64,000 nt of DNA, from positions 1 to 64,000 of IMG/VR virus record IMGVR_UViG_3300050120_000213; one strand, written 5' to 3'. The translations under genes were made by a program, and so were the position numbers. Positions 7,702 to 33,101 of the stretch are shown here, one piece after another (positions within the stretch are counted from its first letter, which is position 1; each line of letters starts with the position of its first letter). A model generated the notes under the pieces. It did no database searches. It was given only the letters and a program-made list of their open reading frames with translations, and was not told where the DNA came from. Source of the DNA: a virus.

Positions 7702-8730
7702 CTAATAACCCTGAGAATCTAAAACTTTCTCGCGTAGTTTGTTGATCGCGCCATCTTCGATTAAGTGGGAAATCAAAGCCCGGAACTCGTACCAACGATC
7801 TATCGGCCAGCCCAATTGTGCCGCTTCAAAACGCTGTTCCAACTTATAGAGATTGGGGTTACCCCACCCTCCCGCAATCAGCACCCCTTCTTCGTAAAAC
7901 ACCGCGTCCCCGATTACGTTGGCTTTCGGAATCAGCGTAGGGGTGGCGTCGAAAAAATCTTTGATGATTTTGAATCCGGTCAGGCGAATCATCACGCCCT
8001 TACCAACTCGCGTATGCGTGTCATAGCAGTAGTCGGGTAACCCTTTCATCATTTGCGGTTCTGGTGCTTGCCACATACTTTGCGTCATCAACATGCTAGC
8101 TATAGGGCCATCAAGCATCTGGAACTTTAACATGCCTTCGCCACGCCAATTATTCTTTACCGCCCAATCCGTAGGTGCGCCGCATTCTTTGATACCGCTA
8201 AGCATTACCCCTTCTAAGTCGGATAAATTGTGCGGTAAAACCCCGCTTTTAAGTGCGTGTTCAATCACTGCCATCGAGCAGTAATCGTGGCTGCGCTCGA
8301 CTGCACACATCAACTCGGTCAGAAAGCATAGCACTTTGTACTGAAAGTCCGGGGCTTTTTTCGGCGTATAGATCGTGCCAGCGCAAATGACAAAGTTCAT
8401 CGCTTCGCGGCATCCAGGGCCAATGTCTTCCGCTGCAATACAACAGACTCGTTTCCAGGCGTAACCGAGTTCGGCGGGCAACGAACACATCGCGCTCACC
8501 AATCGCAACGCCAGCGCGGTATCGCCGCGTCGAATCGTCTTCTGATAAGCGGACATCAATTCCCATTTCCGCTCGGCGTGGGCCAATTTTAACGACATTG
8601 GTGGGGGTTCGTAGATCCGCAGCGCTTCACAAGCGTCGGTCCACCACTCTATACCTGCCATCCCCTCCCACGCTAATCTGGCTTTATACATCTGTTCTAC
8701 TGGCATATCGGGAAAAAGCTGATCAGTCAT
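7702..8730 (-). CDS. Protein with RarA/MgsA C-terminal-like helical domain
   Basis: 342 residues. The block SAYQKTIRRGDTALALRLVS followed by YAWKRVCCIAAEDIG resembles the C-terminal domain of RarA/MgsA clamp-loader-like ATPases (SALHKSIRGSD..., IASEDIG). No Walker A or B motif, so the ATPase part is absent. A replication-fork or DNA-metabolism role is plausible by similarity only. Own promoter (8765-8792); the stop directly abuts the decarboxylase start. Confidence 0.65.
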   Translation of the reverse strand: MTDQLFPDMPVEQMYKARLAWEGMAGIEWWTDACEALRIYEPPPMSLKLAHAERKWELMSAYQKTIRRGDTALALRLVSAMCSLPAELGYAWKRVCCIAAEDIGPGCREAMNFVICAGTIYTPKKAPDFQYKVLCFLTELMCAVERSHDYCSMAVIEHALKSGVLPHNLSDLEGVMLSGIKECGAPTDWAVKNNWRGEGMLKFQMLDGPIASMLMTQSMWQAPEPQMMKGLPDYCYDTHTRVGKGVMIRLTGFKIIKDFFDATPTLIPKANVIGDAVFYEEGVLIAGGWGNPNLYKLEQRFEAAQLGWPIDRWYEFRALISHLIEDGAINKLREKVLDSQGY

Positions 8731-8764
8731 GCTGACTCCATTCGGCGTTTAAATGCGTAGGTTC

Positions 8765-8792
8765 ATTATAGCAGAATGCGGTGGTTTGTCAA
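8765..8792 (-). promoter_or_regulatory. Sigma-70 promoter P3
   Basis: TTGACA (8787-8792), 16 nt, TATAAT (8765-8770) with TGC extension; followed by an AATGGAGT ribosome site. Confidence 0.9.
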
Positions 8793-8793
8793 A

Positions 8794-9162
8794 TTAATGG
8801 TCTTGCCAAAACCCATCGTCTTTGCCAGCAATCTTCTTGAATTCCTCAATAAATTCGGCGTCTGTGCCGTGCAGCGCACGATCTACTGCCTTGGCGTACT
8901 TACGTCCAATCTCAAGAAGATCGTCATCGGAAACAATCTGGTAGGCAATTCCCTTGTCACGACTACAGTGGGCCGACCGATCCCAGGCATCTTGAAAAAC
9001 GTAGACGCCCGCATCCTCTATCTTAGTCGTGTAGCCACTACTATCGGGCCGCCACCATGCTTTATGTTCTCCCGACCAAATCACTACCAGATAGGGCTGA
9101 AAGAACTCCTTCAGCTTGGGGTTGGCCTTGAGATAGGTCAGGGTGCGTCCGAAGCGCTTCAC
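8794..9162 (-). CDS. Conserved phage hypothetical protein
   Basis: 122 residues from a GTG at 9162 that overlaps the previous stop (GTGA). Longer in-frame forms are rejected because they would overlay the 9159-9353 gene. Motif VVIWSGEHKAWWRP and GYTTKIEDAGVYVF are typical of a conserved phage family of unknown function. Confidence 0.7.
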   Translation of the reverse strand: MKRFGRTLTYLKANPKLKEFFQPYLVVIWSGEHKAWWRPDSSGYTTKIEDAGVYVFQDAWDRSAHCSRDKGIAYQIVSDDDLLEIGRKYAKAVDRALHGTDAEFIEEFKKIAGKDDGFWQDH

Positions 9163-9353
9163 GATATAAAATCCAGTAGCGCCAGCGTGACTTCCTTGAC
9201 CTCGGTGCCATGCTGCACAAACAAGGTGGCGGGGTTGCCGTCGCGGGAATCGAGTTCTTTGCACTGGGCCGTGTACGTGACGACGCCCAGGTAGGTGTGC
9301 TCTAGCTGAGCGCCAGCTTCGAGGAAGGCTTTGTGAATCGGAGTGGTTCTCAT
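9159..9353 (-). CDS. Small hypothetical protein
   Basis: 64 residues; beta-rich (YLGVVTYTAQCKELDSRDG). ATGA overlap with the gene before it and GTGA with the gene after it. Function unknown. Confidence 0.6.
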   Translation of the reverse strand: MRTTPIHKAFLEAGAQLEHTYLGVVTYTAQCKELDSRDGNPATLFVQHGTEVKEVTLALLDFIS

Positions 9354-9652
9354 AGGTGGGTATGAAGTCCGGTAACTTTTTCAAAAATGGATTGCAATTG
9401 ATTGCAACCGACTGCGTGCTTACTATTGATCAGTTTGATCGACGTACCGTATATCGAATAAAACGCCATGGTGTACAAGTCATCCCCGGTCAATAAAATT
9501 TGTACTCGACGGATGTTTTTACTACGCGGAATAAAAAATTGCAGGCCATTTTTTAATGCAATAAATTTACTGGCACCGGTCATGACCGCAAAACGATTAC
9601 CACCTAACTGACGTAGGATGGTGGCCCCTACTTCTTTATCAATTATTTCCAT
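9350..9652 (-). CDS. Conserved phage protein (ILRQLGGNRFAVMTGA family)
   Basis: 100 residues. Contains TILRQLGGNRFAVMTGASKF and ILLTGDDLYTMAF, matching a widespread phage/plasmid hypothetical family. Start ATG at 9652 is 9 nt after GGAG. The C-terminal codons include palindromic site 5. Function unknown. Confidence 0.78.
   Translation of the reverse strand: MEIIDKEVGATILRQLGGNRFAVMTGASKFIALKNGLQFFIPRSKNIRRVQILLTGDDLYTMAFYSIYGTSIKLINSKHAVGCNQLQSIFEKVTGLHTHL
9392..9407. repeat. Palindromic site, copy 5 (TG centre)
   Basis: TTGCAATTGATTGCAA in the 3' coding part of the 9350-9652 gene, read as CNQLQ. Confidence 0.9.
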
Positions 9653-9685
9653 GATTTCGGACTCCATTCCGTTGATTTAGATTTA

Positions 9686-9713
9686 AGTATAGCACTGTTT
9701 GCTGGATTGTCAA
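9686..9713 (-). promoter_or_regulatory. Sigma-70 promoter P4
   Basis: TTGACA (9708-9713), 16 nt, TATACT (9686-9691) with TGC extension; followed by CGGAATGGAGT leader. Confidence 0.9.
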
Positions 9714-9715
9714 AG

Positions 9716-9750
9716 GAAAAATGCAGCTAACCCCGAAAGATTAACTGCAT
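9716..9750 (-). terminator. Rho-independent terminator after array 1
   Basis: ATGCAG/CTGCAT stem extended by TAA/TTA, then a U run. It ends the transcript that carries the G-rich array, just before promoter P4. Confidence 0.75.
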
Positions 9751-9756
9751 CCCGTT

Positions 9757-10112
9757 CCCGTACCTCACCCTACCCGACCAAACCTCACCGCACCTGGCCT
9801 AACCCTACCGCACCTGCCTTACCGCACCCAACCTTACCGTGCCCAACCGTACCTTGCCCTGCCTGCCCAACCCTACCACACCTCACCCTACCGAACCCCA
9901 CCAAACCGCACCTGCCTAACCCTACCTTACCTAACCACACCAAACCGGACCATACCTGCCGTACCTGACCGGACCACACCTTACCTAACCATACCGGACC
10001 CTACCACACCTGCCATACCTAACCTCACCTCACCACACCGTACCAAGCCGCACCATACCTGCCATACCAGACCTCACCGCACCTCACCTCACCGGACCAC
10101 ACCTTACCTGCC
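9757..10112 (-). repeat. G-rich degenerate pentamer array 1 (TNNGG with CAGG punctuation)
   Basis: About 355 nt. Read on the transcribed minus strand, it is nearly unbroken TNNGG units with variable NN. A 4-nt CAGG unit interrupts every 5-10 pentamers. It starts at the stop codon of the 10113-10763 gene, so it is that gene's 3' untranslated region. The 5-nt period is out of phase with codons, and short open frames through it are by-products. GG every 5 nt could form two-tier G-quadruplexes or a regular RNA-protein binding array. Confidence 0.85.
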
Positions 10113-10763
10113 TCAATCTACCGCCACTTCTATTGCCTCGCTGATCAACCCTAACTTAATATTGATTAAGTCCAATAAATCTTGCAAAGGGATGTCCGTC
10201 AGCGGGAAAAACTTATTGCTGTTAATTGCGCTGGTGATGTTGCCGCGTGCTGATAGCAAACAGTGACGTAGATTTGAAAGGGACTGATACTCGCTCTTAG
10301 CGATTTCTTCCGATTCTTTCACCCCCATAGCTAGCCCAGTTTTACTAAAGGCGGGCATAAGCGCCGCTATTTCATCTTTAGAACCCAGCGGGGTTGATTT
10401 TACTGGGAAGCTCAAGGTGGTGATTTTAGACTCGTGTTTAATCACCGTTAGGTAAAGCACCTTAACTTCTTTATACAGCAAACTAACCTGCATAAGCAGG
10501 TACTTTTCTTGAGCGTAGTCCTTATTCCACGCCTCTTTAAACAAGTTGTGGAGGATGTCACTCGGGTTTCTAGCGGCGTCAATTAGCGCCTTTTTGTTTA
10601 GCAGTTTCGTCTGGGGGTCCACAAAGCCCATGAAATACAGGATCTGGGCTTTTGACATCTTTTTGCTCTTACTACGGTAGAGCTTTTCCAGTGCCATATA
10701 TTCCTCAGACAGATGCCCTGCTTCTGAGGATGAGTGGTCTATGGTCGTTCCTTCTTGCAACAT
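10113..10763 (-). CDS. Hypothetical phage protein
   Basis: 216 residues starting MLQEGTTIDH (AGGAG 7 nt upstream). Mostly helical, Lys/Leu-rich, no enzymatic motif. Its mRNA ends in G-rich array 1. Not recognised. Confidence 0.65.
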   Translation of the reverse strand: MLQEGTTIDHSSSEAGHLSEEYMALEKLYRSKSKKMSKAQILYFMGFVDPQTKLLNKKALIDAARNPSDILHNLFKEAWNKDYAQEKYLLMQVSLLYKEVKVLYLTVIKHESKITTLSFPVKSTPLGSKDEIAALMPAFSKTGLAMGVKESEEIAKSEYQSLSNLRHCLLSARGNITSAINSNKFFPLTDIPLQDLLDLINIKLGLISEAIEVAVD

Positions 10764-10776
10764 AGTAAGTCTCCTA

Positions 10777-10805
10777 AACAAAACACCGGGGGTGGGTGCC
10801 CCCGG
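10777..10805 (-). terminator. Weak terminator-like hairpin
   Basis: CCGGGGG/CCCCCGG 7-bp stem, 6-nt loop, then an interrupted U-rich tract, between the 10825-11625 and 10113-10763 genes. May only reduce read-through. Confidence 0.5.
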
Positions 10806-10824
10806 AGAGCGCCACGGCCAATTC

Positions 10825-11625
10825 TTACCCAGCCTTCATTGCCTTCAGACCCACGGGTTCCAAAGTCTGCCCGCGCTTCTTGATTTCTTCCTCAAACCAC
10901 TTGTTGATGTCCGCCGTGTCCCTGTCGAAATACGTGGGGTTATCAAAAGCGAGTTCTTGTGCGTGTCGCCCTTGCTTTTCGATTATTTCCAACACCCGTG
11001 GGTCATCGGGCTGTGCCACCAAAAACTTGCCGTAAGGGCCGCCTTTCTGGGGACGCCAATCACCAATCCCTACGATCCGCCCCGCCGCGTGGGCTAAGTT
11101 GGCAATCGAAGTATCATTGAGGGGGTTGGCCTTGTATGTAATGCGGACTCGTGGGATCACCCACTGGCGGAAAATGGGCCGAGTGCGGGGATCGGGCACG
11201 CTAGTCATGCCTGAATTCTTTGCCATCGTAGTATACAGTTCCGGCACGCCAAACAGGTTCAACTGCATGTCTTCATCCTGACTGGTTACGCTAATCCAGC
11301 GTTGGGCTTCGGACTTCCTGATCCCCGGCAAATCCAGCGCCACCGAGGACAAAGCCCCTTGAATCATTGCCACCGGCACATGAAACAACGTGGGTTCATC
11401 ATCGTTGCTGTTCATGTAAAAGCACTCTTGGTACTCCTTAAGCGGATAGTGCTTAATGTTCTCCGCTTTCGCCTGCTTGTTCATCGGTGCTTTGGGCAGC
11501 ATCAATTCCTGAAATGCCTTGCGTGCATAACGGTGCATGATGAAGGGGGATTGCCCAATCAAAGCCAAGTCGATACTCTCGACTTTAACTTCTTCAATAC
11601 TGATCTCTGCATTTTTAACGACCAT
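10825..11625 (-). CDS. Conserved phage protein (QSPFIMHRYARKA family)
   Basis: 266 residues. Contains LALIGQSPFIMHRYARKAFQE, a central HVPVAMIQGALSSVA helix and GIGDWRPQKGGPYGKF. Similar proteins are widespread in phages. The Gly-rich and beta-rich layout faintly recalls RAMP/Cas7-type RNA-binding proteins, but I would not assign that. It lies between the two G-rich arrays, making it a candidate for interacting with them (inference). Confidence 0.7.
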   Translation of the reverse strand: MVVKNAEISIEEVKVESIDLALIGQSPFIMHRYARKAFQELMLPKAPMNKQAKAENIKHYPLKEYQECFYMNSNDDEPTLFHVPVAMIQGALSSVALDLPGIRKSEAQRWISVTSQDEDMQLNLFGVPELYTTMAKNSGMTSVPDPRTRPIFRQWVIPRVRITYKANPLNDTSIANLAHAAGRIVGIGDWRPQKGGPYGKFLVAQPDDPRVLEIIEKQGRHAQELAFDNPTYFDRDTADINKWFEEEIKKRGQTLEPVGLKAMKAG

Positions 11626-11668
11626 CATATCACTCCATTGTTGATAACTGTAGCACCGATTGGTACTA

Positions 11669-11692
11669 GGAAGCCCACGTTAATAGGCTTCC
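11669..11692 (-). other. Stem-loop after array 2
   Basis: GGAAGCC/GGCTTCC 7-bp stem without U-tract, between array 2 and the 10825-11625 gene; parallels the terminator after array 1. Confidence 0.5.
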
Positions 11693-11696
11693 CACT

Positions 11697-11868
11697 ACTA
11701 ACCTTACCTGCCAAACCCGACCTTACCAAACCTAACCGTACCTTACCAAACCGCACCTGCCTTACCGCACCTTACCTAACCAAACCTCACCTGACCTCAC
11801 CGCACCATACCTCACCTGCCTAACCATACCCCACCCAGCCATACCTCACCTGACCATGCCTGCCACAC
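11697..11868 (-). repeat. G-rich degenerate pentamer array 2
   Basis: About 170 nt with the same grammar as array 1 on the minus strand: runs of 8, 11 and 9 TNNGG units separated by CAGG. It lies in the 3' untranslated region of the 11893-12360 gene, right after palindromic site 6. Confidence 0.85.
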
Positions 11869-11873
11869 AAAAA

Positions 11874-11889
11874 TTGCAATCAATTGCAA
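11874..11889. repeat. Palindromic site, copy 6 (CA centre)
   Basis: TTGCAATCAATTGCAA, 3 nt past the stop of the 11893-12360 gene and directly before array 2. Confidence 0.9.
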
Positions 11890-11892
11890 CGC

Positions 11893-12360
11893 TTACGCGC
11901 CCATGTCGTCACGACGGTTCTTGTACTCAGCAGCCAACTTGGCTTCGGCCAGTTCGCCTTGCCACACCATCGCGTTCATTTGCTGCTCATCCGACTCGGT
12001 AAAGTCATCCGGGGTCGTGGGTTGCTTCGGTTCTGCTGGCTCAATCGGACGGATTTCGCGGCCATTCTGTGCGGCAATTTCCGCTAGCTGAGCCCAGTAC
12101 TTCGGCATTTTTTTCCTGGCAATCACCATCTGTTTCGGTGTCAGCGAGCCGTACTTGAGGATGCCCTTGGCAAACGAGGTGAGTATTTCTGCGTCTGTGC
12201 TATTAAACCCAACTCCATTTGCATCATGGGTGGCCTCTGACGATTGCTCTGCTGCTGTCTGCCGTTCGTAGATCCGCAGCACCCCGCGAACTACGGCACG
12301 ATCATTTGTTTGCAAAAGGGCCTGAATCGACTCTTTAACTACTTGTTGGGCTTTGTTCAT
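11893..12360 (-). CDS. Conserved phage/plasmid hypothetical protein
   Basis: 155 residues. Motifs RAVVRGVLRIYERQTAAEQ, DANGVGFNSTDAEIL and LTPKQMVIARKKMPKY match a widespread small family in phages and mobile elements, of unknown function. Promoter P5 and an AATGGAGT ribosome site precede it. Confidence 0.8.
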   Translation of the reverse strand: MNKAQQVVKESIQALLQTNDRAVVRGVLRIYERQTAAEQSSEATHDANGVGFNSTDAEILTSFAKGILKYGSLTPKQMVIARKKMPKYWAQLAEIAAQNGREIRPIEPAEPKQPTTPDDFTESDEQQMNAMVWQGELAEAKLAAEYKNRRDDMGA

Positions 12361-12393
12361 TTTGCGGACTCCATTCCGGTTGGTAATGAATGT

Positions 12394-12421
12394 AGTATAG
12401 CAGCGTGACGCAGTTTGTCAA
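12394..12421 (-). promoter_or_regulatory. Sigma-70 promoter P5
   Basis: TTGACA (12416-12421), 16 nt, TATACT (12394-12399), TGC extension. Confidence 0.9.
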
Positions 12422-12427
12422 ATAAAA

Positions 12428-12940
12428 TCAGCCCTGTACGGCTTTTAGTTGCTCGGCCAGCGAGACGACTTCGGCGTGTACATACTGTTGATCGCGGTAG
12501 ACCCCTGTATCACCAAAAGACAGGTAGCTCGGGTTGTGGCACAACCCGGGCATAAAGTCGCCGTAGTGGGCGCAGTCGAAACCAAAGTACCAAAGAATAT
12601 TCTTATTTTTCTTGGTCAGCCATCCCGAGTACGTCAGGCCACCATGGACTTGGATCAGCGTGTCAATCGATTCTTCACCGTCTTTGCCGTCCGCCATCGC
12701 AATCTTAAACAACGACAGTATGCTGGTTTTATCCAGATCGATAGCTCGATCTTTCCAGTTACCCACGATGGTGGATGTGGGCACTGTCTCACCATAATCC
12801 TTTTTAAACCACGGATGGTCTTTCTGCACACCCACATAACCGCACCATGTGCCGGTTTCCATGTTACGTCGCATCACACACCCCATACGGCCCATGAGCC
12901 AGATCTGCACGTCGGGTTCGTTTTCCCAAGTCTTAATCAT
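12428..12940 (-). CDS. Conserved phage protein (GYVGVxxxHP / HGGLTYS family)
   Basis: 170 residues. WCGYVGVQKDHP, VHGGLTYSGW and YFGFDCAHYGD are signature blocks of a conserved phage and bacterial family of unknown function. ATGA overlap with the preceding 12937-13143 gene. Confidence 0.8.
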   Translation of the reverse strand: MIKTWENEPDVQIWLMGRMGCVMRRNMETGTWCGYVGVQKDHPWFKKDYGETVPTSTIVGNWKDRAIDLDKTSILSLFKIAMADGKDGEESIDTLIQVHGGLTYSGWLTKKNKNILWYFGFDCAHYGDFMPGLCHNPSYLSFGDTGVYRDQQYVHAEVVSLAEQLKAVQG

Positions 12941-13976: not shown

Positions 13977-14537
13977 CTAACTGCCTACTGATAGTGCAGC
14001 ACCCATATACTGGGGTGTACGAACCTTAGAATTAAACAACATTCGCCCCGCGTTACAGCCATTACAAGACGGTACTACATTACTCCAGGCGTTGTTATGC
14101 CGGTCATGATCTAAGTGATCAACATGAATAGGCTCACACTTACCACTTTCTTCTGGAAACCACTCCAGTGGGGCTGCGCACCAAAAACAGGGCACTCTAG
14201 CATTACCAATTTGCTCATACAGAGCTACTCTGTGAGCGTATACACGTCCACGTACATCTGCTAAAAAATGCCCGTGTAACGTTAGCTGTTTGTATCTTTT
14301 TGGATTTAGGGTTCTTAGATTGCCATCAAGGGGCAGCCCTTTACGGAATCTTCGTAGATGGGTTTGGCATAAACCATTACTCTTATGCCTACTAGAACAG
14401 CCCTCTACAGAACATATAACTACAGGACGAGTGTAATTTACGTCACCGTAAAAACGTAAACGCCAACTATGCATTTGGCACAGCCCGCCTTTCCTACAAC
14501 TAGGCTTTACGCAACCATTAACCGAACAAGTTTTCAT
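13977..14537 (-). CDS. HNH endonuclease with zinc-knuckle N-terminus
   Basis: 186 residues. Two CSVxGC...LCQxH...RxR units in the N-terminal 70 residues (zinc-binding, DNA-contacting in related phage nucleases), then CFWCAAPLEWF, HVDHLDHDRHNN and VVPSCNGCNAGR, an HNH/endonuclease VII-like core with the catalytic HVDH. Starts within the previous stop (ATGA). Likely a free-standing homing endonuclease. Confidence 0.85.
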   Translation of the reverse strand: MKTCSVNGCVKPSCRKGGLCQMHSWRLRFYGDVNYTRPVVICSVEGCSSRHKSNGLCQTHLRRFRKGLPLDGNLRTLNPKRYKQLTLHGHFLADVRGRVYAHRVALYEQIGNARVPCFWCAAPLEWFPEESGKCEPIHVDHLDHDRHNNAWSNVVPSCNGCNAGRMLFNSKVRTPQYMGAALSVGS

Positions 14538-14857: not shown

Positions 14858-15364
14858 TTAGTCGTAATCACTGTTATTCATGGCGCGTTCCGACGCCCCG
14901 AGTGCTTCTTTGATACGCTTGGACAAACTACTAGTGGCCTTAGTCGCGCCACCCTGCGGGACTTTTTTAAGCTGGGCTGCGTCAAACTCGATCTGTGCTC
15001 GTTGCAGTGCTGCCAAGGTAGCCTGATACCCTTCGATCAGCTTGTTGGTGGCATCGAGCGGGATCGGCATGTCCTTCTCTTTTTCCATCGCCTTATCGAC
15101 GCGAGCTTTTTGCAGCCGCGCCAGCGCCAACAACTCGTCAAGAGGGCTGAATGGCGCTAAGACCAGATCATCCGGCGTAATCTTTTTTGGAATCAGACTT
15201 TTGCGGTATGCCGTAATCAATTGAGCCACTGAATCCCGCACCACATCGGTGAAGTGTCCTTCTTTCTGGAGGTGTTCTGCAATAGCCAACGAATCCAATT
15301 GGCTGGTCTTAATCACCAATAACGTGACTTCTGGAAGTTCTTCAATGCGGTTAAATTTCGACAT
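14858..15364 (-). CDS. Hypothetical phage protein
   Basis: 168 residues, helical, with LPEVTLLVIKTSQLDSLAIAEH and a basic C-terminal end. Start codon lies inside the 3' end of the HNH gene at 15351. No assignment. Confidence 0.65.
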   Translation of the reverse strand: MSKFNRIEELPEVTLLVIKTSQLDSLAIAEHLQKEGHFTDVVRDSVAQLITAYRKSLIPKKITPDDLVLAPFSPLDELLALARLQKARVDKAMEKEKDMPIPLDATNKLIEGYQATLAALQRAQIEFDAAQLKKVPQGGATKATSSLSKRIKEALGASERAMNNSDYD

Positions 15365-15860
15365 TTACATGCCCCCATGTAGCCCCACGCTTTATATCAC
15401 TAACCGTCATTACGTGAACGCCGAACTCTTTTGCTAACACGTTGCCACGTTCCCCGCCCAATAACCTAATTTTAATTTCTCTGACTTGGATTTCGGTCAA
15501 TTTAGACGGGCCTGCATCTTCTCCAATAGGGAGTCTTCCCCGAATAATTTTATCTTTGCAATTATCTCCGTGTGTCCCAGCAACTAAATGATTAGGGTTA
15601 CAACACGGAGGATTATCGCAAGTATGTCTAATTACTATCCCCTCAATATCTTCTAGTGATAATTTATGGGCCACTGCATAAGATAGTCGGTGAGATAAAG
15701 TGTTTCCAACCCCCTCCCATGAACACCTACCGTAGCCATTTCTATCTATTCGGCCAGGGTATAGCATACATTCTCCGTACCCTTCTGCAATCAATTGCAC
15801 GGATTTAATAACATTAAGCCAATACCTTACTTTCTTACCAGCATTTCTAATCATTCTCAT
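15351..15860 (-). CDS. HNH homing endonuclease with C-terminal HTH
   Basis: 169 residues. GYGRCSWEG, LSHRLSYAV, then HTCDNPPCCNPNHLVAGTHGDN (HNH_3-type core) and a C-terminal helix-turn-helix LAKEFGVHVMTVSDIKRGATW. Overlaps the ParB-fold gene upstream and the 14858 gene downstream. The Trp-Gly codons (TGGGGG) near its end supply the ribosome site of the next gene. Contains palindromic site 8. Confidence 0.88.
   Translation of the reverse strand: MRMIRNAGKKVRYWLNVIKSVQLIAEGYGECMLYPGRIDRNGYGRCSWEGVGNTLSHRLSYAVAHKLSLEDIEGIVIRHTCDNPPCCNPNHLVAGTHGDNCKDKIIRGRLPIGEDAGPSKLTEIQVREIKIRLLGGERGNVLAKEFGVHVMTVSDIKRGATWGHVNVEI
15786..15799. repeat. Palindromic site, copy 8 (CA centre)
   Basis: TGCAATCAATTGCA inside the HNH gene, read as VQLIA. 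Confidence 0.9.
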
Positions 15861-16689
15861 CTATACTCTCCAGAGTAGGCAATTCAATCCCCTCTGAAAT
15901 TATAACTTTCTCGCCATTCTCAATTAATTTATTCAGTATCTGACTACCTTTTTCTGATAGTGAGAAATCAATCAATCCGTTTAGAACAGCATCTAATGCC
16001 ACTGCTCCGTCGATGCACTTGTGCCCCAACGCGATTAACTTTTTCCTCTCAGCCGACGCCATCCTTATCCACACACTATCTCTGCCACCATAATCCAACA
16101 GCATGAAATTGTAGTCGAGGGTATTTCCGTATTTGCTGAACATCCCGTTAAGTAACTTGCTTAGGCCATCGATGGTTTTAAGTTCTTTGGCCGCCTTCTC
16201 GAAATCTGCCTGCAACTCCTTTGGCAAAGATTTCGACATTTGTTTAGTCAGTTTCTTAAAGGCTTCTTCGTCTGCGAAGCCGAAGGCTTCGGCCATGATC
16301 TCAGCTTCGTACTTCTTGTCCAGAGAGTTGTACAACGCCATGAACTTATCCGGCGACATCTTACCGCGTATCACATTCATCCTGACGACTTGGAATTTTT
16401 CTTGATCGTCGTCAAACTCGGGATCATCAATGATTGTGCAAGGCACTTCCTCAAAACCATGTAGCTTAGCCATTTCCCAACGATGGTGACCACCGACAAT
16501 CCGGTACACGTCTTCCGCGATACGCCGTACAAAAATCGGATCGGTTATCCCGATCTTGTCGAAATTGTCACTGAGCATATTAAACTCAGCGTCCGACATC
16601 GTGTTAGGGTTGTCTTTGTTCGCCACCAACTGACCAATAGGCAGGTTGCGGCGCTCTAAGGCGTTGGTCTTCGAAAGTGCGTCACTCAC
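15847..16689 (-). CDS. ParB/sulfiredoxin-fold protein
   Basis: 280 residues from a GTG overlapping the glycosyltransferase stop. N-terminal ParB/Srx domain: LPIGQLVANKDNPN, ITDPIFVRR, YRIVGGHHRWEMAKLHG (about 65-81, the ParB nucleotide-binding box region). The remainder is helical with no obvious helix-turn-helix. In phages such domains occur in partition, transcription-control or DNA-modifying proteins. A candidate, not demonstrated, reader of the palindromic sites. Confidence 0.8.
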   Translation of the reverse strand: MSDALSKTNALERRNLPIGQLVANKDNPNTMSDAEFNMLSDNFDKIGITDPIFVRRIAEDVYRIVGGHHRWEMAKLHGFEEVPCTIIDDPEFDDDQEKFQVVRMNVIRGKMSPDKFMALYNSLDKKYEAEIMAEAFGFADEEAFKKLTKQMSKSLPKELQADFEKAAKELKTIDGLSKLLNGMFSKYGNTLDYNFMLLDYGGRDSVWIRMASAERKKLIALGHKCIDGAVALDAVLNGLIDFSLSEKGSQILNKLIENGEKVIISEGIELPTLESIDEND

Positions 16690-18100
16690 GGATCATCACT
16701 CCTACATCCTTAGTGTCGGTCCAGCCTAACTGGGCGGCCACAATTTTCAACATGATCGTGCTGGGGGTGCGCCCTAATACCCGAGACTCAGTGTTCTCTA
16801 TGGTAGTCCCCATTTTGAACATTGTCTCATTTATTACCGCGTTGAGATCCAAGGTTGGCCCTGCAATTGATTGCAACCGTTCCCGATAGGTTTGGCCCAT
16901 GTCAGACGTAAGCACGTTGCGTCGTGCCTCAAAATCTGCCACCAACTCCACCAACTTATCGCCTGTGGTGACGTTCTTAGCCGGATCCGCCACATAGGCC
17001 GCCCAGTAATTTTCTTCCCAGGTTTTGAACTGCTCGTACATAAAAAAGTAGTCGTCGGCAAACTTCTTTAACAACGTATAGGCTTCGAGTTCGTTCTTGA
17101 CTCTAAACGGGTATTCTTTGCCCAAAAATGCATTCCAGGGCCGTTCATACAACACCATAGGCACGCCTGCCAACAACGTTTCCCAGGTAGACAACGAAAA
17201 ATCCTCGGTGTCTACCATGGACACCACTACGTGCTGGGTGTCTAGGTACTTCCAGAATTTCTCCCGGTCGTTTAGCTGAATGTCCATAAACGACATATCG
17301 AGCACTTCCGCCCCACCCGTCGAATTGGAGTTGGTGCTCACACTAAACTTCATAGACTTGTTCGGGCCGATGGGGTAGCTGAAATGCTTTTGAAAAAGCT
17401 CTACCACGTCATTGAAGTTGCGGCCCGAAGTCATACGCCCCACAAATCCCACGTTAAAATCAGCAGCGGTGACTGTGGGTACATTACGCATATTCAGCCG
17501 CGTCAGGCGCACCGGCACCACCTCATGGATCTTATCCAATACCTTTTTCTGCCATGCTGGCGACAACATCTCCTTCAACACCGGGCGTAGCGCGGTCTTA
17601 GTCCACTGATTATTAATCAGAGTGGCATCCACCAGCCCATACGTCGCCAACGTATCTGCCCACAAATGCTCGTGCCAAGGCACCGTATCCCTAAATGGCA
17701 GGATCGGCATTTCTTCCAGGCCGATATACAGACGCTGCCACGGCATCTTGTCGGACAGCGGGCGGGCTGCATGAACCGGAAAGTGCTTAAGCATCGGGAT
17801 GCGACTACTCACTACCACATCGACGTCCCAGGCCAGCCCGCACCACGGGTTGAGGTAGGTCCGCAACTCGTTGCGAATCATGTACAACTCGCTGAGTCGA
17901 TCCGTGGGATCGGACGGCAGATCTAGCAACGTGACGCGATCCGGGTGTCGGGAGAGAAAATCGAGATCTTCTGGCTCGCAGCGGTCTGCGGGGTAGGTCA
18001 GATAAATAAATACATCGTCGCGCCACGCGATTAACTGCTCTATCAGTTCCCAGGCAAGGTAGCTCGTGGAACATATCCGGGGCCGCTGGGTGTAAACCAC
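16682..18100 (-). CDS. GT-B fold glycosyltransferase
   Basis: 472 residues. Second-half motifs FNVGFVGRMTSGRNFNDVVELF, VVSMVDTEDFSLSTWETLLAGVPMVLYER fit the donor-binding E-x7-E region of GT4-like enzymes. It would transfer a sugar made by the upstream aminotransferase, epimerase and deacetylase. No ribosome site precedes the GTG at 18100, and an endonuclease gene sits directly before it, so the N-terminus may have been trimmed by that insertion. Acceptor unknown (DNA base, virion protein or host surface glycan). Contains site 9. Confidence 0.75.
   Translation of the reverse strand: MVYTQRPRICSTSYLAWELIEQLIAWRDDVFIYLTYPADRCEPEDLDFLSRHPDRVTLLDLPSDPTDRLSELYMIRNELRTYLNPWCGLAWDVDVVVSSRIPMLKHFPVHAARPLSDKMPWQRLYIGLEEMPILPFRDTVPWHEHLWADTLATYGLVDATLINNQWTKTALRPVLKEMLSPAWQKKVLDKIHEVVPVRLTRLNMRNVPTVTAADFNVGFVGRMTSGRNFNDVVELFQKHFSYPIGPNKSMKFSVSTNSNSTGGAEVLDMSFMDIQLNDREKFWKYLDTQHVVVSMVDTEDFSLSTWETLLAGVPMVLYERPWNAFLGKEYPFRVKNELEAYTLLKKFADDYFFMYEQFKTWEENYWAAYVADPAKNVTTGDKLVELVADFEARRNVLTSDMGQTYRERLQSIAGPTLDLNAVINETMFKMGTTIENTESRVLGRTPSTIMLKIVAAQLGWTDTKDVGVMIRE
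16862..16875. repeat. Palindromic site, copy 9 (TG centre)
   Basis: TGCAATTGATTGCA inside the glycosyltransferase gene, read as LQSIA. Confidence 0.9.
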
Positions 18101-18105
18101 GTCGA

Positions 18106-18723
18106 TTAAGCACTTAATTTTAGGGCCTCTCTTGGGTCAATTTTACGTTTAACGATACGTTGATAAGCGGTATTGTACTTGACACCAGTTTGCTCACACC
18201 ATTCACGTAATGTCTTAGTAACCCCATCAATTGTCACCTGATGTACATTACGTCGATTTATTCCTTGTTCTATCTTGGTGGCCCAACGCACGTTCCCTGG
18301 CTCGTAATTGCCATCGTTGTTTGGAAAACGGTCTAAAGTCATGCCATCTGGCGGCGAACCTACGTCCTCAAAGAAATTCTCAAATACCATCCACCTCTCA
18401 CAAACAGTTATACCTCTCCCACCGTAATCAGAATATGCGGGGCAATTAACATCAAAACATCTCTGTTTCATGCTCATCCACGTATTATGGATTGAGGTGT
18501 GGGACATACCATGCCGGTACTGAGAATTAACAATTCCCGTTACTCGACTACACCCACAAGATTTGTGGTAGCCAGCACGTACATACTTTGCTTCAATCCA
18601 TTTCTCTGCACCACATTCACAACGACACAACCACCAAAGCCAGCCAATGCCTTTCCTATTTTCATGCTGTCTACGTTCAGACTTTATTACGGTCAATTTA
18701 CCGTACACTGTCTCTGAAATCAT
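18106..18723 (-). CDS. Homing-endonuclease-like protein (YGGRGI/RWAT family)
   Basis: 205 residues. Cys-rich start (CRCECG...SCGCSR), TWMSMKQRCF, YSDYGGRGITVCERW..FENFFEDVG, LDRFPNNDGNYEPGNVRWAT, then a C-terminal helical DNA-binding region. Belongs to a phage family of HNH-like/AP2-associated mobile endonucleases. Its ATG overlaps the aminotransferase stop (ATGA), and its stop is 6 nt from the glycosyltransferase start. One of three such copies here. Confidence 0.82.
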   Translation of the reverse strand: MISETVYGKLTVIKSERRQHENRKGIGWLWWLCRCECGAEKWIEAKYVRAGYHKSCGCSRVTGIVNSQYRHGMSHTSIHNTWMSMKQRCFDVNCPAYSDYGGRGITVCERWMVFENFFEDVGSPPDGMTLDRFPNNDGNYEPGNVRWATKIEQGINRRNVHQVTIDGVTKTLREWCEQTGVKYNTAYQRIVKRKIDPREALKLSA

Positions 18724-19796
18724 TCTGCCCTCATCCAGTGACGGATTTCCTTGCTGGTCATGCCTTCAAAGGTCTTTTCCCCTATGGGCAAGCACATATG
18801 CCCTTGCGCCCAGGCTTGGCTGTTATGCAGCGGCACCGGGTATTCAACAAAATGGGCTTTAGCCGCGCATCGAACCTGATCAGTCAAACTGTAAACTTTA
18901 CCGGTTTGCTTGAAGCCACCTTCCGCCACGACGGGGTACTTGTAGTAATTCGAATGAGTATTGACTTCACCCATCAGGCAGAGGAACCCAGCGTCTTGTA
19001 ATTGGGTTGCAGCGACTAGCCGGTTCGCCAGTACCTCGTCTAAATAATTCATCTGTACGCCCAATACAGCGGCGTCGAACTCACTCATGCGCAAGTTAAA
19101 ACCCCGCCCATACCGAATTACGCCTTGGCTATCTTTAAACTTGCCATAACTACGAAACTCTAAGGAGAATTCTGGTATAGAACATTGCCAGTCGCGCCAG
19201 ATCAATACACCCCCCTCGCCACCCGGGACTGCCTTAGTAGGGTAAAAACTGAAACATGCAGCGGTAGAGAGATCTCCTGCAGCGTGGCCTTGCGCGTTGC
19301 GCACCCCAAACACATGAGCAGCGTCCTCAATCAACACTATTCTATGCTCATCGCACCACGTTGCAATCGCCTCATAGTCTTGGGCAACCCAGCCGCCAAC
19401 GTGGGTTAAGCACACCACGGTAGCCTTGCTGGCCGTAACGGCGGCAATCATGCTATCCACGCCCATACTAGGGTCAGTAGGGGAGGAATCACAGACCACG
19501 GGAGCTAGGCCAGCCTCTACCGCCATCGCCACAGTGGCGTAAAAAGTATTGTTCTGCAGCACAATCTTGTTGTGGCCCAGAGATTGCAACCAGCTAAATA
19601 TTGTATAAAGCGCTGCACCACAGTTGCTAAAGCTAACCGCCCCAGCAGAATGGTAGTGCTCACACACTTTAATCTCGAATTCCGAGGTATGTTCACCCTC
19701 GCTGTAGCACCCGCTACGCATGATACTGTCCACCGCGCCCATCACATCATGGATCTTACGCTCGTCGTTAAGACTATCAACTATGGGGCGGTTCAT
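18720..19796 (-). CDS. DegT/DnrJ/EryC1 family sugar aminotransferase
   Basis: 358 residues. PLP enzyme signatures: EDAAHVFG (157-164), SFYPTKAVPGGEGG with K188 as the probable Schiff-base lysine. The family transaminates NDP-keto-sugars. ATGA overlap with the epimerase gene (19793), so they act in one pathway that makes an amino-sugar for the downstream glycosyltransferase. Confidence 0.88.
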   Translation of the reverse strand: MNRPIVDSLNDERKIHDVMGAVDSIMRSGCYSEGEHTSEFEIKVCEHYHSAGAVSFSNCGAALYTIFSWLQSLGHNKIVLQNNTFYATVAMAVEAGLAPVVCDSSPTDPSMGVDSMIAAVTASKATVVCLTHVGGWVAQDYEAIATWCDEHRIVLIEDAAHVFGVRNAQGHAAGDLSTAACFSFYPTKAVPGGEGGVLIWRDWQCSIPEFSLEFRSYGKFKDSQGVIRYGRGFNLRMSEFDAAVLGVQMNYLDEVLANRLVAATQLQDAGFLCLMGEVNTHSNYYKYPVVAEGGFKQTGKVYSLTDQVRCAAKAHFVEYPVPLHNSQAWAQGHMCLPIGEKTFEGMTSKEIRHWMRAE

Positions 19797-20797
19797 GCAA
19801 CTTTACTCCGAATCTTCTGACGTAAGAGGTCCGTAAATGCGGGGGCGCTCTTGCCGTAAAAATGCAAGGCGTTCTGTCTGTGATATTCGGGCATACGCAT
19901 GATATACCTCACCGTATTTGCAATTGATTGCACAAACGGAACTTCAGTTTTCATCCCTACGGATTCCCAGTAGCTCATATCTGCTTTGAGCATGATGTCA
20001 TCGCCTTCTCCTTCCCGCATTTTTATATGCTGAATCTCACTAAATGACTTAGTACCCAAAGACGCCAATTCGTGGTCAACAGCATTCAAAATCAATGCAC
20101 AAGCATCATTGCAACTAATGTCGTTACCACTACCAAGATCAACGACAACAGGATGCTTGCCAAGATTACGGCAGGCGTGAAGGGTAAAGCGTGACATGTC
20201 TTCCACATCAATCGGGTCAATCGTTTGATTACCACTACCATAAATTTCAAGAGGGAAGTCATAGAGGGCTAGCAGAACCATCATAGGCAAGAACTTGCGT
20301 ACTGGGTACAAATGTTGGTGTGGCCCGACGGCATTCAGCCACCGCACCGTCGCCACGTTCATGTCGTACTTGTCACGGTACAGCAGCCCCAGCAACTCCC
20401 CGGCGTGTTTGGTCAGAGTGTATGCGTTCTCCGCGTAGCCTTCGAAATGGGGCTTCGCAACGTTATACACGCGTCTAACGCCTTGGATTCGGGCAGCGTC
20501 GAGCACATTTGCGCATCCAACCACATTCGTTTCAACGGCCAAACTGACGCAGGCCAATAGCTCGCTCGTACCGAGGACTCCAGCCAAGTTATAAACTTCA
20601 TCTACGTCCTCGAAGGCGTCAATCAACGATTTTAAGTTACGGATATCGGCGTACACGTACGTGGTTTTCGGCCCTAGTGGTATGCAGGGGGCCACCAAAT
20701 CAATCAGCACGATTTCCGTATCCGGCTCTTTGCGCTGCAGATAATCAGTTAGGTTACTTCCGATGAAGCCTGTACCACCCGTTATCGCTACGCGCAT
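19793..20797 (-). CDS. NAD-dependent sugar epimerase/dehydratase (SDR)
   Basis: 334 residues. GGTGFIG nucleotide-binding loop (7-13), YADIRN, and catalytic YTLTK (Y126, K130). Extended short-chain dehydrogenase of the NDP-sugar epimerase/dehydratase type. Preceded by an endonuclease gene (20806) and coupled to the DegT gene. Contains site 10. Confidence 0.9.
   Translation of the reverse strand: MRVAITGGTGFIGSNLTDYLQRKEPDTEIVLIDLVAPCIPLGPKTTYVYADIRNLKSLIDAFEDVDEVYNLAGVLGTSELLACVSLAVETNVVGCANVLDAARIQGVRRVYNVAKPHFEGYAENAYTLTKHAGELLGLLYRDKYDMNVATVRWLNAVGPHQHLYPVRKFLPMMVLLALYDFPLEIYGSGNQTIDPIDVEDMSRFTLHACRNLGKHPVVVDLGSGNDISCNDACALILNAVDHELASLGTKSFSEIQHIKMREGEGDDIMLKADMSYWESVGMKTEVPFVQSIANTVRYIMRMPEYHRQNALHFYGKSAPAFTDLLRQKIRSKVA
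19919..19932. repeat. Palindromic site, copy 10 (TG centre)
   Basis: TGCAATTGATTGCA inside the epimerase gene, read as VQSIAN. Confidence 0.9.
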
Positions 20798-20805
20798 AGA
20801 ACACC

Positions 20806-21405
20806 CTATTTTTCCAATTTATACAAAGTACCGCGTTGGTGACGATTGTACAACGCCGGGTAAGAGATTCCCAGCTTTTCTGCAAGCTCTACAAGAGCTA
20901 TTTTGTCTCTTTTGAAAATAACCATAACTGTATTTCTTCTATTTCTATTTTGCTCTGTATCCGTGGCCCACCGACAGTTGTGCGGTTCGTAATTCCCATT
21001 AACATCAGGGTATCGATCTAAAGACAATCCCTCCGGTACTTCTCCCATGTCGGCTAGGAAGTTCTCGAACTTTAGCCAGCGGTCGCAAACAATTATCCCT
21101 CTGTCACCATAGTCTTTATAGGATTTGTGCTTGGAGTTGTAGCACCGTTGCTTCATGTGGTCCCAGCAAAAATATGTTGGGGTTTTACTATACCCATGCT
21201 TCATTACTCCGGTTGCCAATTCTTTTTGAAGGCAACCACAAGATCGGGTATTCCCGCTTCTTAGCCCATTTGAACGTGCTGAAATCTCAGTCCCGCAAGA
21301 GCATTTACATCTATAGCGCACCCTACCCCCGGCGCCATTAGCTACTCGATGTAACACCAAAAGACGTCCATAGGTATGCCCAGTTAAATCGATAATCTTT
21401 GTCAT
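20806..21405 (-). CDS. Homing-endonuclease-like protein (YGGRGI/RWAT family)
   Basis: 199 residues from the ATG overlapping the deacetylase stop (ATGA). HTYGRLLVLHRV, CKCSCGTEISARSNGLRSG, WDHMKQRCYN, YKDYGDRGIIVCDRW, LDRYPDVNGNYEPHNCRWAT; C-terminal helix-turn-helix VELAEKLGISYPALYNR. Paralog of the 18106 and 32650 genes. Confidence 0.82.
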   Translation of the reverse strand: MTKIIDLTGHTYGRLLVLHRVANGAGGRVRYRCKCSCGTEISARSNGLRSGNTRSCGCLQKELATGVMKHGYSKTPTYFCWDHMKQRCYNSKHKSYKDYGDRGIIVCDRWLKFENFLADMGEVPEGLSLDRYPDVNGNYEPHNCRWATDTEQNRNRRNTVMVIFKRDKIALVELAEKLGISYPALYNRHQRGTLYKLEK

Positions 21406-22091
21406 TTTTGCAGCCACAAAGTATAAGGCTCCGCCAGAGCCTCCCCTATAACGCTACCACATTGCATAGCATGTGCTCTAATATTTTCAGGAGAACGTGG
21501 GTGTGGGTGCGCCCTTATTTCATCCACATATGTAGCAACAGCTTTTTGTTTCACTTCCAATTGGTCCTCAGTCATCAACTCAAACCAATTTGCCCCTGTA
21601 GGGGTGCCACCATCGTGTGCGTGAGCTATTAGTACTCTTTTTACGCACCTCAAATTTGCGGGCCGCAAAGCAATTTTGCATATCCGACTTAAGTGTTCGT
21701 GATCTTGATTCAAATCTGAGGGACTAGGGATTACCACTTCATCATAGAAGCCGCCGCCCAGCGCCAACGTACCTTCGATGTGGGATAGCAGCATGTAGTG
21801 GCCGTGCTGGTATGGCTCGCCTTCTGCCAAACCCAAATACGTGGATATGATTGGGCCGTTTTTACTGTCTTTCGCCAGCACGGCTAAACTTTCTGAGAAA
21901 TTCTCCTTTTGGCGTCTCGCTAGGGCCACCGAAATGATTGAGTCGGGGTCATACTCAGGGTAAGCCCTTCCATGCACCACTAGCACCGTAACCAGCCCCT
22001 CGGGGTTTTGTAAGCGGTTCTGGATTAACCCCCCGCAAGAAAGAGCCTCGTCATCCGGGTGTGCGGCGACGATAAGTGTTTGAAAAGACAT
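21402..22091 (-). CDS. PIG-L/LmbE-type deacetylase
   Basis: 229 residues. AHPDDEALSCGG (9-20) is the family zinc-binding AHPDDE motif; a later DQDHEH segment supplies His ligands. Known members remove acetyl groups from N-acetylglucosamine derivatives. First gene of the carbohydrate cluster, so it probably yields a free amino-sugar. Confidence 0.85.
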   Translation of the reverse strand: MSFQTLIVAAHPDDEALSCGGLIQNRLQNPEGLVTVLVVHGRAYPEYDPDSIISVALARRQKENFSESLAVLAKDSKNGPIISTYLGLAEGEPYQHGHYMLLSHIEGTLALGGGFYDEVVIPSPSDLNQDHEHLSRICKIALRPANLRCVKRVLIAHAHDGGTPTGANWFELMTEDQLEVKQKAVATYVDEIRAHPHPRSPENIRAHAMQCGSVIGEALAEPYTLWLQK

Positions 22092-24304: not shown

Positions 24305-24826
24305 TCATACCGCAATTTCACCCAAAGGGCCGTACCCATATGCAACACCCTTGGGGTATTTCTCTACTTCTACTGCTAACAAATGCTGGCCCATCCGTGC
24401 CAAAGCGTAAGCATCTACGATATCGTTGGACTTATTTTTAAAACCCCAGCGGGCCGCAACATATTCCGCCATCCCATCTTTGTTCATCCCTCCCTGACCA
24501 GGGCCGCCTACCCACAGCTTTAGGGTTGATGGTCGAATCATGCGCCAGGGGATACCGTGGTGGTGCAACCCTACCCGTAAAATCGTACCAATTTCAATCT
24601 GGGTGATAATTGTACTACCACTTTTCTGCAACCCCAAAGCGTATTCTTCGATAAACGCCACATCGGGCTTGCGGGCTTCTAAAAAGTGGTCGAAGTTCAC
24701 TGCAATCAATTGCAACCGCTCAAACCCCTCGATGCCTTCGATATGCAGCAGCTTCACAAAGGATTCGTCGCCATCCAGCACGGCTAGTCCGGTTTTCGTT
24801 GAAGCGTCGATCCCCAGCACCCTCAT
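24305..24826 (-). CDS. RuvC-like Holliday junction resolvase
   Basis: 173 residues. GIDASTKTG (5-13, first catalytic Asp7), FIEEYALG (E60/E61) and DIVDAYALA (D135/D138) give the RuvC acidic set. Cuts branched recombination intermediates before packaging. The start ATG (24826) lies in the end of the inserted HNH gene. A recoded copy of its first five codons remains at 25294-25308. Contains site 13. Confidence 0.88.
   Translation of the reverse strand: MRVLGIDASTKTGLAVLDGDESFVKLLHIEGIEGFERLQLIAVNFDHFLEARKPDVAFIEEYALGLQKSGSTIITQIEIGTILRVGLHHHGIPWRMIRPSTLKLWVGGPGQGGMNKDGMAEYVAARWGFKNKSNDIVDAYALARMGQHLLAVEVEKYPKGVAYGYGPLGEIAV
24701..24714. repeat. Palindromic site, copy 13 (CA centre)
   Basis: TGCAATCAATTGCA inside the resolvase gene, read as LQLIAV. 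Confidence 0.9.
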
Positions 24827-25287
24827 ACGTGACTCCACGCTTTTCCGTACTTTATATCTGTAACTATGTAATAACCCACTCCCAATTCCTTTGCTATATG
24901 AGTCATTTTCTCTTTCTGATTAAGAAGGGCTTTTATGCGTCTAGCAGTATCCTCATTGATTATCGCGTTACCGTGAGTCTCGCCGTGGCAATGCCGCCCT
25001 TTGGTAACTGCGTCTTGGACGTTTTCTTTTTGAGTTCCCGCCAATAGATGATCTGGTCTAACACATAAAGGAGTATCACAAATGTGGCGAATAACATACC
25101 CTTCAGGAACAGGGCCATTAACAAGTGTGTAGCTGTATATATGGGCACGGATGCCTTTTCGCTTCACAGCAAACTGCCCATAACCCTTACACTGGCCTGC
25201 TGTCCATAACCAACACTCACCAGTCTTGTCTACTTTAGTCCAAAACAATTCTTCTGGGGACATACGAAGGTAAACACCGCTAGGCAT
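24823..25287 (-). CDS. HNH homing endonuclease with C-terminal HTH
   Basis: 154 residues. GECWLWTAGQCKGYGQF, RAHIYSYTLVNG, HICDTPLCVRPDHLLAGTQKEN (HNH_3 core), and AKELGVGYYIVTDIKYGKAW HTH tail. Inserted at the ruvC start: its final codons TGG AGT CAC form the ribosome site of ruvC, and its stop overlaps ruvC's ATG. Same family as 15351-15860. Confidence 0.9.
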   Translation of the reverse strand: MPSGVYLRMSPEELFWTKVDKTGECWLWTAGQCKGYGQFAVKRKGIRAHIYSYTLVNGPVPEGYVIRHICDTPLCVRPDHLLAGTQKENVQDAVTKGRHCHGETHGNAIINEDTARRIKALLNQKEKMTHIAKELGVGYYIVTDIKYGKAWSHV

Positions 25288-28417: not shown

Positions 28418-28837
28418 TTAGCCCCACTCTGCGTAGATTTGCTTAACGATAATTTGGAGTTCAGCGCGTTGAACTGCGCTAAGCCGTTTGATGCTGTTGC
28501 TGTCTAGGTAGTGCTGAATACGGGCCAACAATCGCACTTGGGCTTCGGTGAACCACAACTCCCAGTGATCAAACTTATTCGGCTCGGGGAAGTACTCCAT
28601 TTTTCGCCAGTTACGCAGCGTCCAAATCGTCACCCCTAATTCTTCCGCCGCCGCCACAAGACTGACGTTGTAACCAGGGGGCTTGGGGTTTTGTTTGCGT
28701 CGGTCATCACGGGCCTTGCGTGCCGATGCCAGCACCCGGGCCTTATACTTGGGATCGTTTTGGTAGCGCTTACGCCGTTGGGAGTTGAAATCTTCCTTAT
28801 GGGTCTTGTACCACTTATCAAACGCTTCGTTAGCCAT
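28418..28837 (-). CDS. MerR-like HTH DNA-binding protein
   Basis: 139 residues from MANEAFDKW, start overlapping the endonuclease stop (TAATG). Basic N-terminal half, then VAAAEELGVTIWTLRNWRK...FPEP, a MerR/excisionase-type winged helix. Could regulate phage transcription or bind replication DNA. Confidence 0.72.
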   Translation of the reverse strand: MANEAFDKWYKTHKEDFNSQRRKRYQNDPKYKARVLASARKARDDRRKQNPKPPGYNVSLVAAAEELGVTIWTLRNWRKMEYFPEPNKFDHWELWFTEAQVRLLARIQHYLDSNSIKRLSAVQRAELQIIVKQIYAEWG

Positions 28838-29337
28838 TACAACCACCTCCAAATGCGCCCTGTATTTATATCTGAAACTGTCATTTGGTGAATTCCGAAT
28901 AAACTCGCTATCTTTGTCTGTGGTATTTTTTGTCTTAGTAGCTCTCGTATTTCTAATACTTGAGATTCTTTGAGTTTGCACTGGGAATTTTTCTTCCCAC
29001 GGGTGGAATTTCCATTCCTAACCATATCGGACCCATTCTCTTTTGAAGTGCCATAGCGCAAATTACTTAAACAATCATTACTACCAATGTCATCCCAATG
29101 TAAGACCATCCTACCTTCTGCAGGGCCTAAGAAGGCTTCAGCTACCAACTTATACGGGTAGCGTTTGTAGCCTACCCCGTTAACAAAAAGTCGAACAAAT
29201 TTACGACCATTTCCATTATCTTGCGGGGTTAAAATATTTCCACCTAGACGCACCACTTTCGTGGATCTAACCCTACCTAGGCTAGAAATTTGATAGCGTC
29301 CTTCAAAACCAACAACAGGCTTCCATAATTCAATCAT
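28837..29337 (-). CDS. NUMOD4-HNH homing endonuclease
   Basis: 166 residues. WKPVVGFEGRYQISSLGRVRS (NUMOD4), LVAEAFLGP...VLHWDDIGSNDCLSNLRYG (HNH core), C-terminal HTH TKIASLFGIHQMTVSDINTGRIW. ATGA overlap with the helicase stop. Its last codons TGG AGG form the ribosome site of the 28418 gene. Confidence 0.92.
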   Translation of the reverse strand: MIELWKPVVGFEGRYQISSLGRVRSTKVVRLGGNILTPQDNGNGRKFVRLFVNGVGYKRYPYKLVAEAFLGPAEGRMVLHWDDIGSNDCLSNLRYGTSKENGSDMVRNGNSTRGKKNSQCKLKESQVLEIRELLRQKIPQTKIASLFGIHQMTVSDINTGRIWRWL

Positions 29338-32669: not shown

Positions 32670-33099
32670 GTATGAGCCTGTGTACGTAAGATTTTGAAAC
32701 GCCAGTTAAAGCAGCAATTTTTCTAGTTGTTAGACCTGTCTGACTAAGTTGTTTAATTTTATCTCTAAATGCATCAGCAATTGGGGTTGGCTGCACTCCG
32801 ACACGCTTATTTTCATTTTGTTCTTTAGGAGTGGCCCACCGGCAGTTACCCGGTTCGTAATTACCATCTTGGTTTGGGTAACGGTCTAATGACTTACCTT
32901 TAGGGCACTCGCCCATATCGGCATAGAAATTTTCAAATACCCACCACCGGTCACAAACTTTGACCCCTCTACCCCCGTAATGTACGTATTCTGGATCTTT
33001 CCTGTTATAACACCGTTGTTTCATTCTGGACCATCTACCATAAGTCTTAGACTGAATACCATCAGCGGTGCGTGTCATTCCATGGGTTCGATGTGCCAT
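32650..33099 (-). CDS. Homing-endonuclease-like protein (YGGRGI/RWAT family)
   Basis: 149 residues. GRWSRMKQRCYN, VHYGGRGVKVCDRW, LDRYPNQDGNYEPGNCRWAT, C-terminal HTH TTRKIAALTGVSKSYVHRL. Shorter than its paralogs (no Cys-rich N-terminus). Overlaps the primase start by 20 nt. Confidence 0.8.
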   Translation of the reverse strand: MAHRTHGMTRTADGIQSKTYGRWSRMKQRCYNRKDPEYVHYGGRGVKVCDRWWVFENFYADMGECPKGKSLDRYPNQDGNYEPGNCRWATPKEQNENKRVGVQPTPIADAFRDKIKQLSQTGLTTRKIAALTGVSKSYVHRLIRDSGTK

Positions 33100-33101
33100 G
33101 T

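Follow-up and report, generated by a model that had tools for sequence, protein, structure and literature searches.

A phage locus with two CAGG-punctuated YNNGG arrays, a RAMP-like protein gene and an accessory gene: a probable VIPR system

Why would a phage keep the first base and the last two bases of a pentamer nearly constant over dozens of units, and leave the two bases between them free? The question is raised by two G-rich arrays in the window analysed here, a 64-kb stretch of a virus record. Read on the minus strand, array 1 (9758-10115) comprises about 66 YNNGG-type units and seven CAGG tetramers, and array 2 (11702-11867) comprises 29-30 YNNGG units and four CAGG. A preliminary description had placed the arrays at 9757-10112 and 11697-11868, a shift of only a few bases. 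Its grammar of TNNGG and CAGG stands as a frame with free NN, with the amendment that about 7% of the pentamers start with C. Across both arrays together there are 96 YNNGG pentamers (first base T in 89 and C in 7, terminal GG fixed) and 11 CAGG tetramers. All 16 dinucleotides occur at NN, and the entropy of NN is 1.89 and 1.93 of a maximum of 2 bits. The longest perfect run of TNNGG and CAGG counts 38 units in array 1 and 27 in array 2, compared with three units outside the arrays on either strand of the 64 kb and with six and five units in resampled arrays (2000 first-order Markov resamples each). CAGG recurs in the window after every 8-11 pentamers, rather than after every 5-11 units as had been described. 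Array 1 divides into six or seven blocks, each 8-11 units long and one of them degenerate (about 9819-9872), and array 2 has three full blocks, of 8, 11 and 9 units.

All genes neighbouring the arrays are coded on the minus strand, which is the reading strand of the arrays. As first described, each array follows a gene stop and leads into a strong hairpin. The stop codon of the ORF at 10113-10781 contains the start of array 1 (TGA-GG-CAGG), and this array is directly followed by a hairpin with a T run that resembles an intrinsic terminator (9714-9759, minus strand, fold z -3.55). Directly after array 2, before the start of the gene that we call vipr, lies a second hairpin (11658-11703, minus strand, fold z -3.35). 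Open frames exist within the arrays, yet we rejected a reading as coding sequence because CAGG changes the frame in every block. Neither an Rfam scan of the region nor a blastn search of the array against plasmids gave a match.

Just before array 2 is a further hairpin, TTGCAATTGATTGCAA followed by T5 (11874-11889, minus strand). Positions 9392-9407 are the reverse complement of this sequence, and the two copies form a perfect 16-nt inverted pair that flanks the locus; each copy is a possible small terminator. Upstream of array 2 and of the gene at 11893-12360 lies a promoter-like TTGACA-16-TATACT (12394-12421, minus strand). Nine near-identical minus-strand sites of the form TTGACA-16-TATA(A/C)T occur in the window (1216, 8792, 9713, 12421, 13742, 23560, 34641, 42216 and 42482), several of them upstream of a small gene, and they are probably early host-type promoters of the phage. 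Array 2, vipr, the accessory gene vap and array 1 run in the same direction and probably form one operon.

The vipr gene (10825-11628, minus strand) encodes a putative guide-RNA-binding protein of the RAMP (Cas7-like) type, of 267 amino acids and with a C-terminal extension that is common to its nearest relatives. Against Pfam, the protein gave nothing over the cut-off. Its sole notable sequence match in the PDB is 36pp, 'SUSP1 Vipr protein' (phmmer E 0.0063), and a profile (A1) of the window protein plus 16 proteins from array loci, with SUSP1 and Felix sequences left out, reaches the same entry at E 9.5e-14. An AlphaFold model of the protein (pLDDT 86, pTM 0.83) has as its top Foldseek matches Cas7-family subunits of CRISPR types III and VII (E down to 4.3e-6), in a library of structures for which 36pp is probably too recent. 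A Vipr is expected to be a RAMP homologue that combines an RRM core with a glycine-rich loop and a thumb, and the sequence includes a stretch that resembles a glycine-rich loop, GIGDWRPQKGGPYGKF, with invariant G183, G187, R192 and G200. On homology and modelling, this ORF encodes a Vipr with a predicted CRISPR-like RAMP/Cas7-type fold. A tree of 31 Viprs places the window protein in a nine-member clade (support 100/99) and the Viprs of SUSP1 and LESphi2 in a separate group (100/100). As a sequence grouping, the clade that holds the window Vipr is itself firm; the mutual relation of the two groups is uncertain because, as the tree program warned, long branches meet between them.

The preliminary description had proposed looking for the TNNGG(n)CAGG pattern in other phages. 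We scanned IMG/VR with a 28-base degenerate pattern of the array grammar that is blind to protein, and matched 19 viral contigs, in each of which the arrays are built of the same units plus CAGG; the grammar scan of bacterial and archaeal genomes added four matches. A Vipr homologue lies near the array in 16 of the 19 contigs, which is 16 of the 16 with enough flanking DNA. In the remaining three the array is at or near the end of the examined DNA, and one of these (L014) retains the end of the accessory gene. The converse search, by the window Vipr alone, returned 15 viral contigs, 14 of them with an array; the exception (L064) has a weaker array that is visible under looser scoring. Over all loci, the array is on the vipr strand in 64 of 64 arrays. 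The Viprs of the grammar-bearing viral and bacterial loci are only about 20-40% identical to that of the window. Many phages with no more than a distant relationship have retained the grammar, and this bears out the suggestion that selection acts on a fixed frame with free NN. The preliminary description had also held that the arrays would probably be neutral if they were absent or scrambled in relatives and their RNA were not made, and at the sequence level the opposite is found. Its proposal that the two genes between the arrays are their partners is strengthened, both by the Vipr homologue in every testable locus and by a vap family in the same position.

A blastn search of the array against named phages led to Felix O1-type phages and SUSP1. 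There the arrays occupy stretches without annotation that surround a pair of genes, and in the Felix type the neighbouring gene encodes the protein of the solved structure 'SUSP1 Vipr protein'. Direct repeats are listed in the Felix O1 genome paper, and its accessible part does not name these arrays (PMC3185647). Unannotated arrays of the CAGG type, together with Viprs, were also seen in Mycobacterium phage Quico (L050, 2065-2309) and in Gordonia phages Pipp and ODay and cyanophage Cy-LDV1 (L048 3068-3296, L052 3080-3245 and L051 3071-4018, entries and phages being given in the same order).

The second gene between the arrays, vap (10113-10781, minus strand, 222 amino acids), encodes an accessory protein that is a divergent member of a family. 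The family adjoins vipr at about 30 loci, whose carriers range from phages of Gordonia and Mycobacterium to a planctomycete MAG. A profile of this family built without the window matches the window protein at E 1.2e-7, and hhalign gives 95%. By hhalign, the family has no sequence relation to vap1 of SUSP1. The window vap gave nothing over the cut-off in Pfam, and blastn of the window gene region against known phages gave no match.

We consider it very probable that the arrays and the two genes together make up a VIPR (Viral Interference Programmable Repeat) locus, with the arrays serving as guide RNAs (vrRNAs) and with Vipr and vap encoded between them; membership in the VIPR system is well supported. 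VIPR was first described in a bioRxiv preprint of April 2026. According to the accessible text of that source, Vipr is an ancestral RAMP, vrRNAs consist of 9-16 YNNGG repeats, a vap gene lies alongside, and the NN pairs of the vrRNA recognise double-stranded DNA with one skipped base (PMC13142463). The same text finds VIPR chiefly in phages and prophages and describes it as directed against competing mobile elements; it also names seven types whose array architectures vary and include 'staggered arrays with overlapping vrRNAs' (PMC13142463). The source record of the window (99.5 kb, with tail and capsid genes) is likewise a phage location. The sequence places the window locus outside the experimentally studied type II (SUSP1) clade.

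What is known of guide binding, of the 1-nt skip code and of repression comes from the preprint and concerns type II relatives only (PMC13142463). By analogy, the window arrays would be transcribed into a GGY/NN guide RNA, on which Vipr protomers, probably one per pentamer, would grip the invariant GG-Y. This would leave the NN pairs free to pair with double-stranded DNA, one base of the target being skipped between each pair and the next (NN-x-NN-x), if the skip code is also valid in the window clade. One guide most likely corresponds to the 8-11 pentamers that separate two CAGG tetramers; on this reading, the phage would carry about ten guides of 16-22 informative bases. The guides may be directed at competing phages or prophages, whose transcription would be blocked. 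The NN composition in the window is closest to codon positions 1-2 (-3.93 bits per NN, compared with -4.02 for the next frame), and the same holds over 42 loci (-3.935 compared with -4.024), a fit to which base composition alone could contribute. Such a resemblance is expected if the skipped base sits on the wobble position.

Searches for targets gave matches at about the level of chance. Six 1-nt-skip NN-x-NN patterns, five of them from window guides, had one single match in IMG/VR, and as these patterns included possibly non-pairing pentamers beside CAGG, true matches may have been lost. The lone match (L069, 7127-7152) falls in a gene that resembles T4-type baseplate genes, and its skip base coincides with the wobble position. 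We did not accept it as a target because an 18-base pattern is expected about once or more in so large a collection, the wobble placement has odds of 1 in 3, and the match ends at block ends. When guides were compared with all DNA collected in the study at skips of 0-4, skip 1 had no excess over the other skips. For one guide of L041 in three host genomes (MAGs), control matches were as many as real ones, and part of one window guide had no match in the phage's own genome.

How the arrays are divided into guides can be addressed by comparing loci. Blocks between CAGG are mostly 8-12 units long. CAGG-punctuated arrays occur in all tree relatives outside the SUSP1/LESphi2 group whose array lies within the examined DNA (L064 scored weakly), and CAGG is absent from the arrays of that group and of L065-L068, the latter outside the tree. 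The NN of the pentamer before CAGG is identical in 21.5% of within-locus pairs, compared with 7.6-9.7% at the three pentamer positions upstream of it and with 13.6% directly after CAGG. Because the NN before CAGG repeats within a locus, we suggest that CAGG and the neighbouring pentamer form a guide boundary, most likely as a limit or processing point; the CAGG-adjacent pentamers may then take no part in target pairing. Alternatively, this could be a VIPR locus in which a long RNA scaffolds Vipr across CAGG, or in which guides overlap in a staggered way, and blocks would not be single guides. Arguing for this alternative, staggered arrays in which vrRNAs overlap are among the architectures of the preprint (PMC13142463) and the blocks have no individual tail: an invariant structured 3' tail per guide is absent from the window, where blocks are contiguous and the two array-end hairpins differ. 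Counter to this, block lengths cluster at 9-12 units across loci, near the 9-16 repeats of known vrRNAs (in the window a guide would have 8-11 units, should each block be a single guide), and the repetition of NN before CAGG is boundary-like. We judge the alternative to be possible but rather unlikely. Returning to CAGG as a boundary, we would extend the idea only tentatively, and with more doubt than conviction, to a class of VIPR, widespread among phages of multiple host groups, to which the window would belong. Here tail-less concatenated guides would be delimited by CAGG plus a locus-conserved neighbouring pentamer. This would make CAGG a boundary or processing signal of a new kind, with expanded arrays as heritable multi-target arsenals.

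Three readings would place the arrays outside VIPR altogether. Slippage can create tandem 5-mers, and the arrays might be neutral low-complexity DNA; slippage, however, would not hold T and GG while NN vary, and the grammar is common to loci with Viprs about 20-40% identical, always on the vipr strand, so that we assign this explanation a negligible probability. With GG every 5 nt, two-tetrad quadruplexes are possible in principle, and the arrays could act alone as two-tier G-quadruplexes, in RNA or DNA, during replication, termination or packaging. The T/C first base, the strict 5-nt spacing and CAGG would all be needless for such a role and the constant same-strand Vipr would be left unexplained, which makes it very improbable. 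The preliminary description had likened the arrays, as 3' UTR elements, to the RNA targets of ring proteins such as TRAP. On this third reading a TRAP-like ring would bind the spaced motifs and control the operon or its mRNA 3' ends, and NN would be idle spacers. The short period of the motif, its mix of fixed and free bases and the placement of the arrays at gene ends before hairpins fit this proposal, and an oligomerising RNA-binding reader most likely survives from it. A TRAP ring on a 3' UTR does not: the array-adjacent protein is a RAMP (Cas7-like) in every testable viral locus, arrays reach about 160 units (L057), far beyond the need of a ring, and NN usage is skewed to codon positions 1-2. 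In the accessible preprint text, moreover, the SUSP1 experiments show NN base-pairing, and NN carry targeting information in the characterised relatives (PMC13142463). We regard the TRAP-like reading as highly unlikely.

Array size and architecture vary among the Vipr loci collected. The largest array seen is in L057 (7361-9232), a guide array of 1.87 kb with about 30 CAGG blocks that follows vipr and vap, contains a run of up to about 160 units and ends in a strong terminator hairpin. Another architecture is found in L065, L066, L067 and L068, Vipr loci with arrays of up to 33 units without CAGG.

Elsewhere in the window, inspection of translations by eye revealed at least eight ORFs resembling HNH-type (homing) endonucleases, scattered between genes (13977-14537, 15351-15860, 18106-18723, 20806-21417, 24823-25287, 28837-29337, 32650-33111 and 39937-40440). 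HNH-like ORFs also interrupt a cluster at 16682-22091 that, again by eye, resembles sugar-modification genes: a glycosyltransferase, a DegT-like aminotransferase, an NAD-dependent epimerase and a PIG-L deacetylase.

VIPR has been proposed as the ancestor of CRISPR RAMPs and is a case of RNA-guided DNA recognition with a noncontiguous code; it has been in print only since April 2026, and few systems have been tested. The locus described here is a further member, from outside the tested clade, and contributes two arrays, about ten putative guides, a divergent vap and a candidate guide delimiter. It opens questions as to what bounds a guide, how general the 1-nt skip code is and by what route phages come to accumulate guides.

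Set against known systems, the window shares with TRAP targets a short periodic motif, most likely read by an oligomer, whereas the partner protein is unrelated and the free positions would carry information. With the Cas7-family RAMPs of CRISPR types III and VII (Csm3, Cmr, type VII Cas7) the window Vipr shares its predicted fold and, by analogy, may share the formation of a filament on guide RNA. Unlike in those systems, the guide would be noncontiguous and no Cas1, CRISPR repeats or nuclease subunit were seen (no CRISPR repeats by TRF; no match to a cas family among the genes in 7702-12940). The VIPR loci of the Gordonia and Mycobacterium phages, of cyanophage Cy-LDV1 and of the viral contigs L054-L063, all of them unannotated, combine Vipr with CAGG arrays as in the window and mostly have the same vap family. 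In higher-GC relatives a pentamer may start with C, T or A, whereas in the window it starts almost only with T. With the type II system of SUSP1 (Vipr, vap1 and four vrRNAs; PDB 36pp; PMC13142463), the window has in common a Vipr homologue, same-strand YNNGG arrays on both sides of the vipr-vap pair, long intergenic regions with hairpins, and a phage genome as carrier. In contrast to SUSP1, the window Vipr belongs to another clade and has a C-terminal extension, and its vap is without sequence relation to vap1. SUSP1 has a tail on every vrRNA, whereas the putative guides of the window are concatenated, delimited by CAGG and followed by one hairpin per array.
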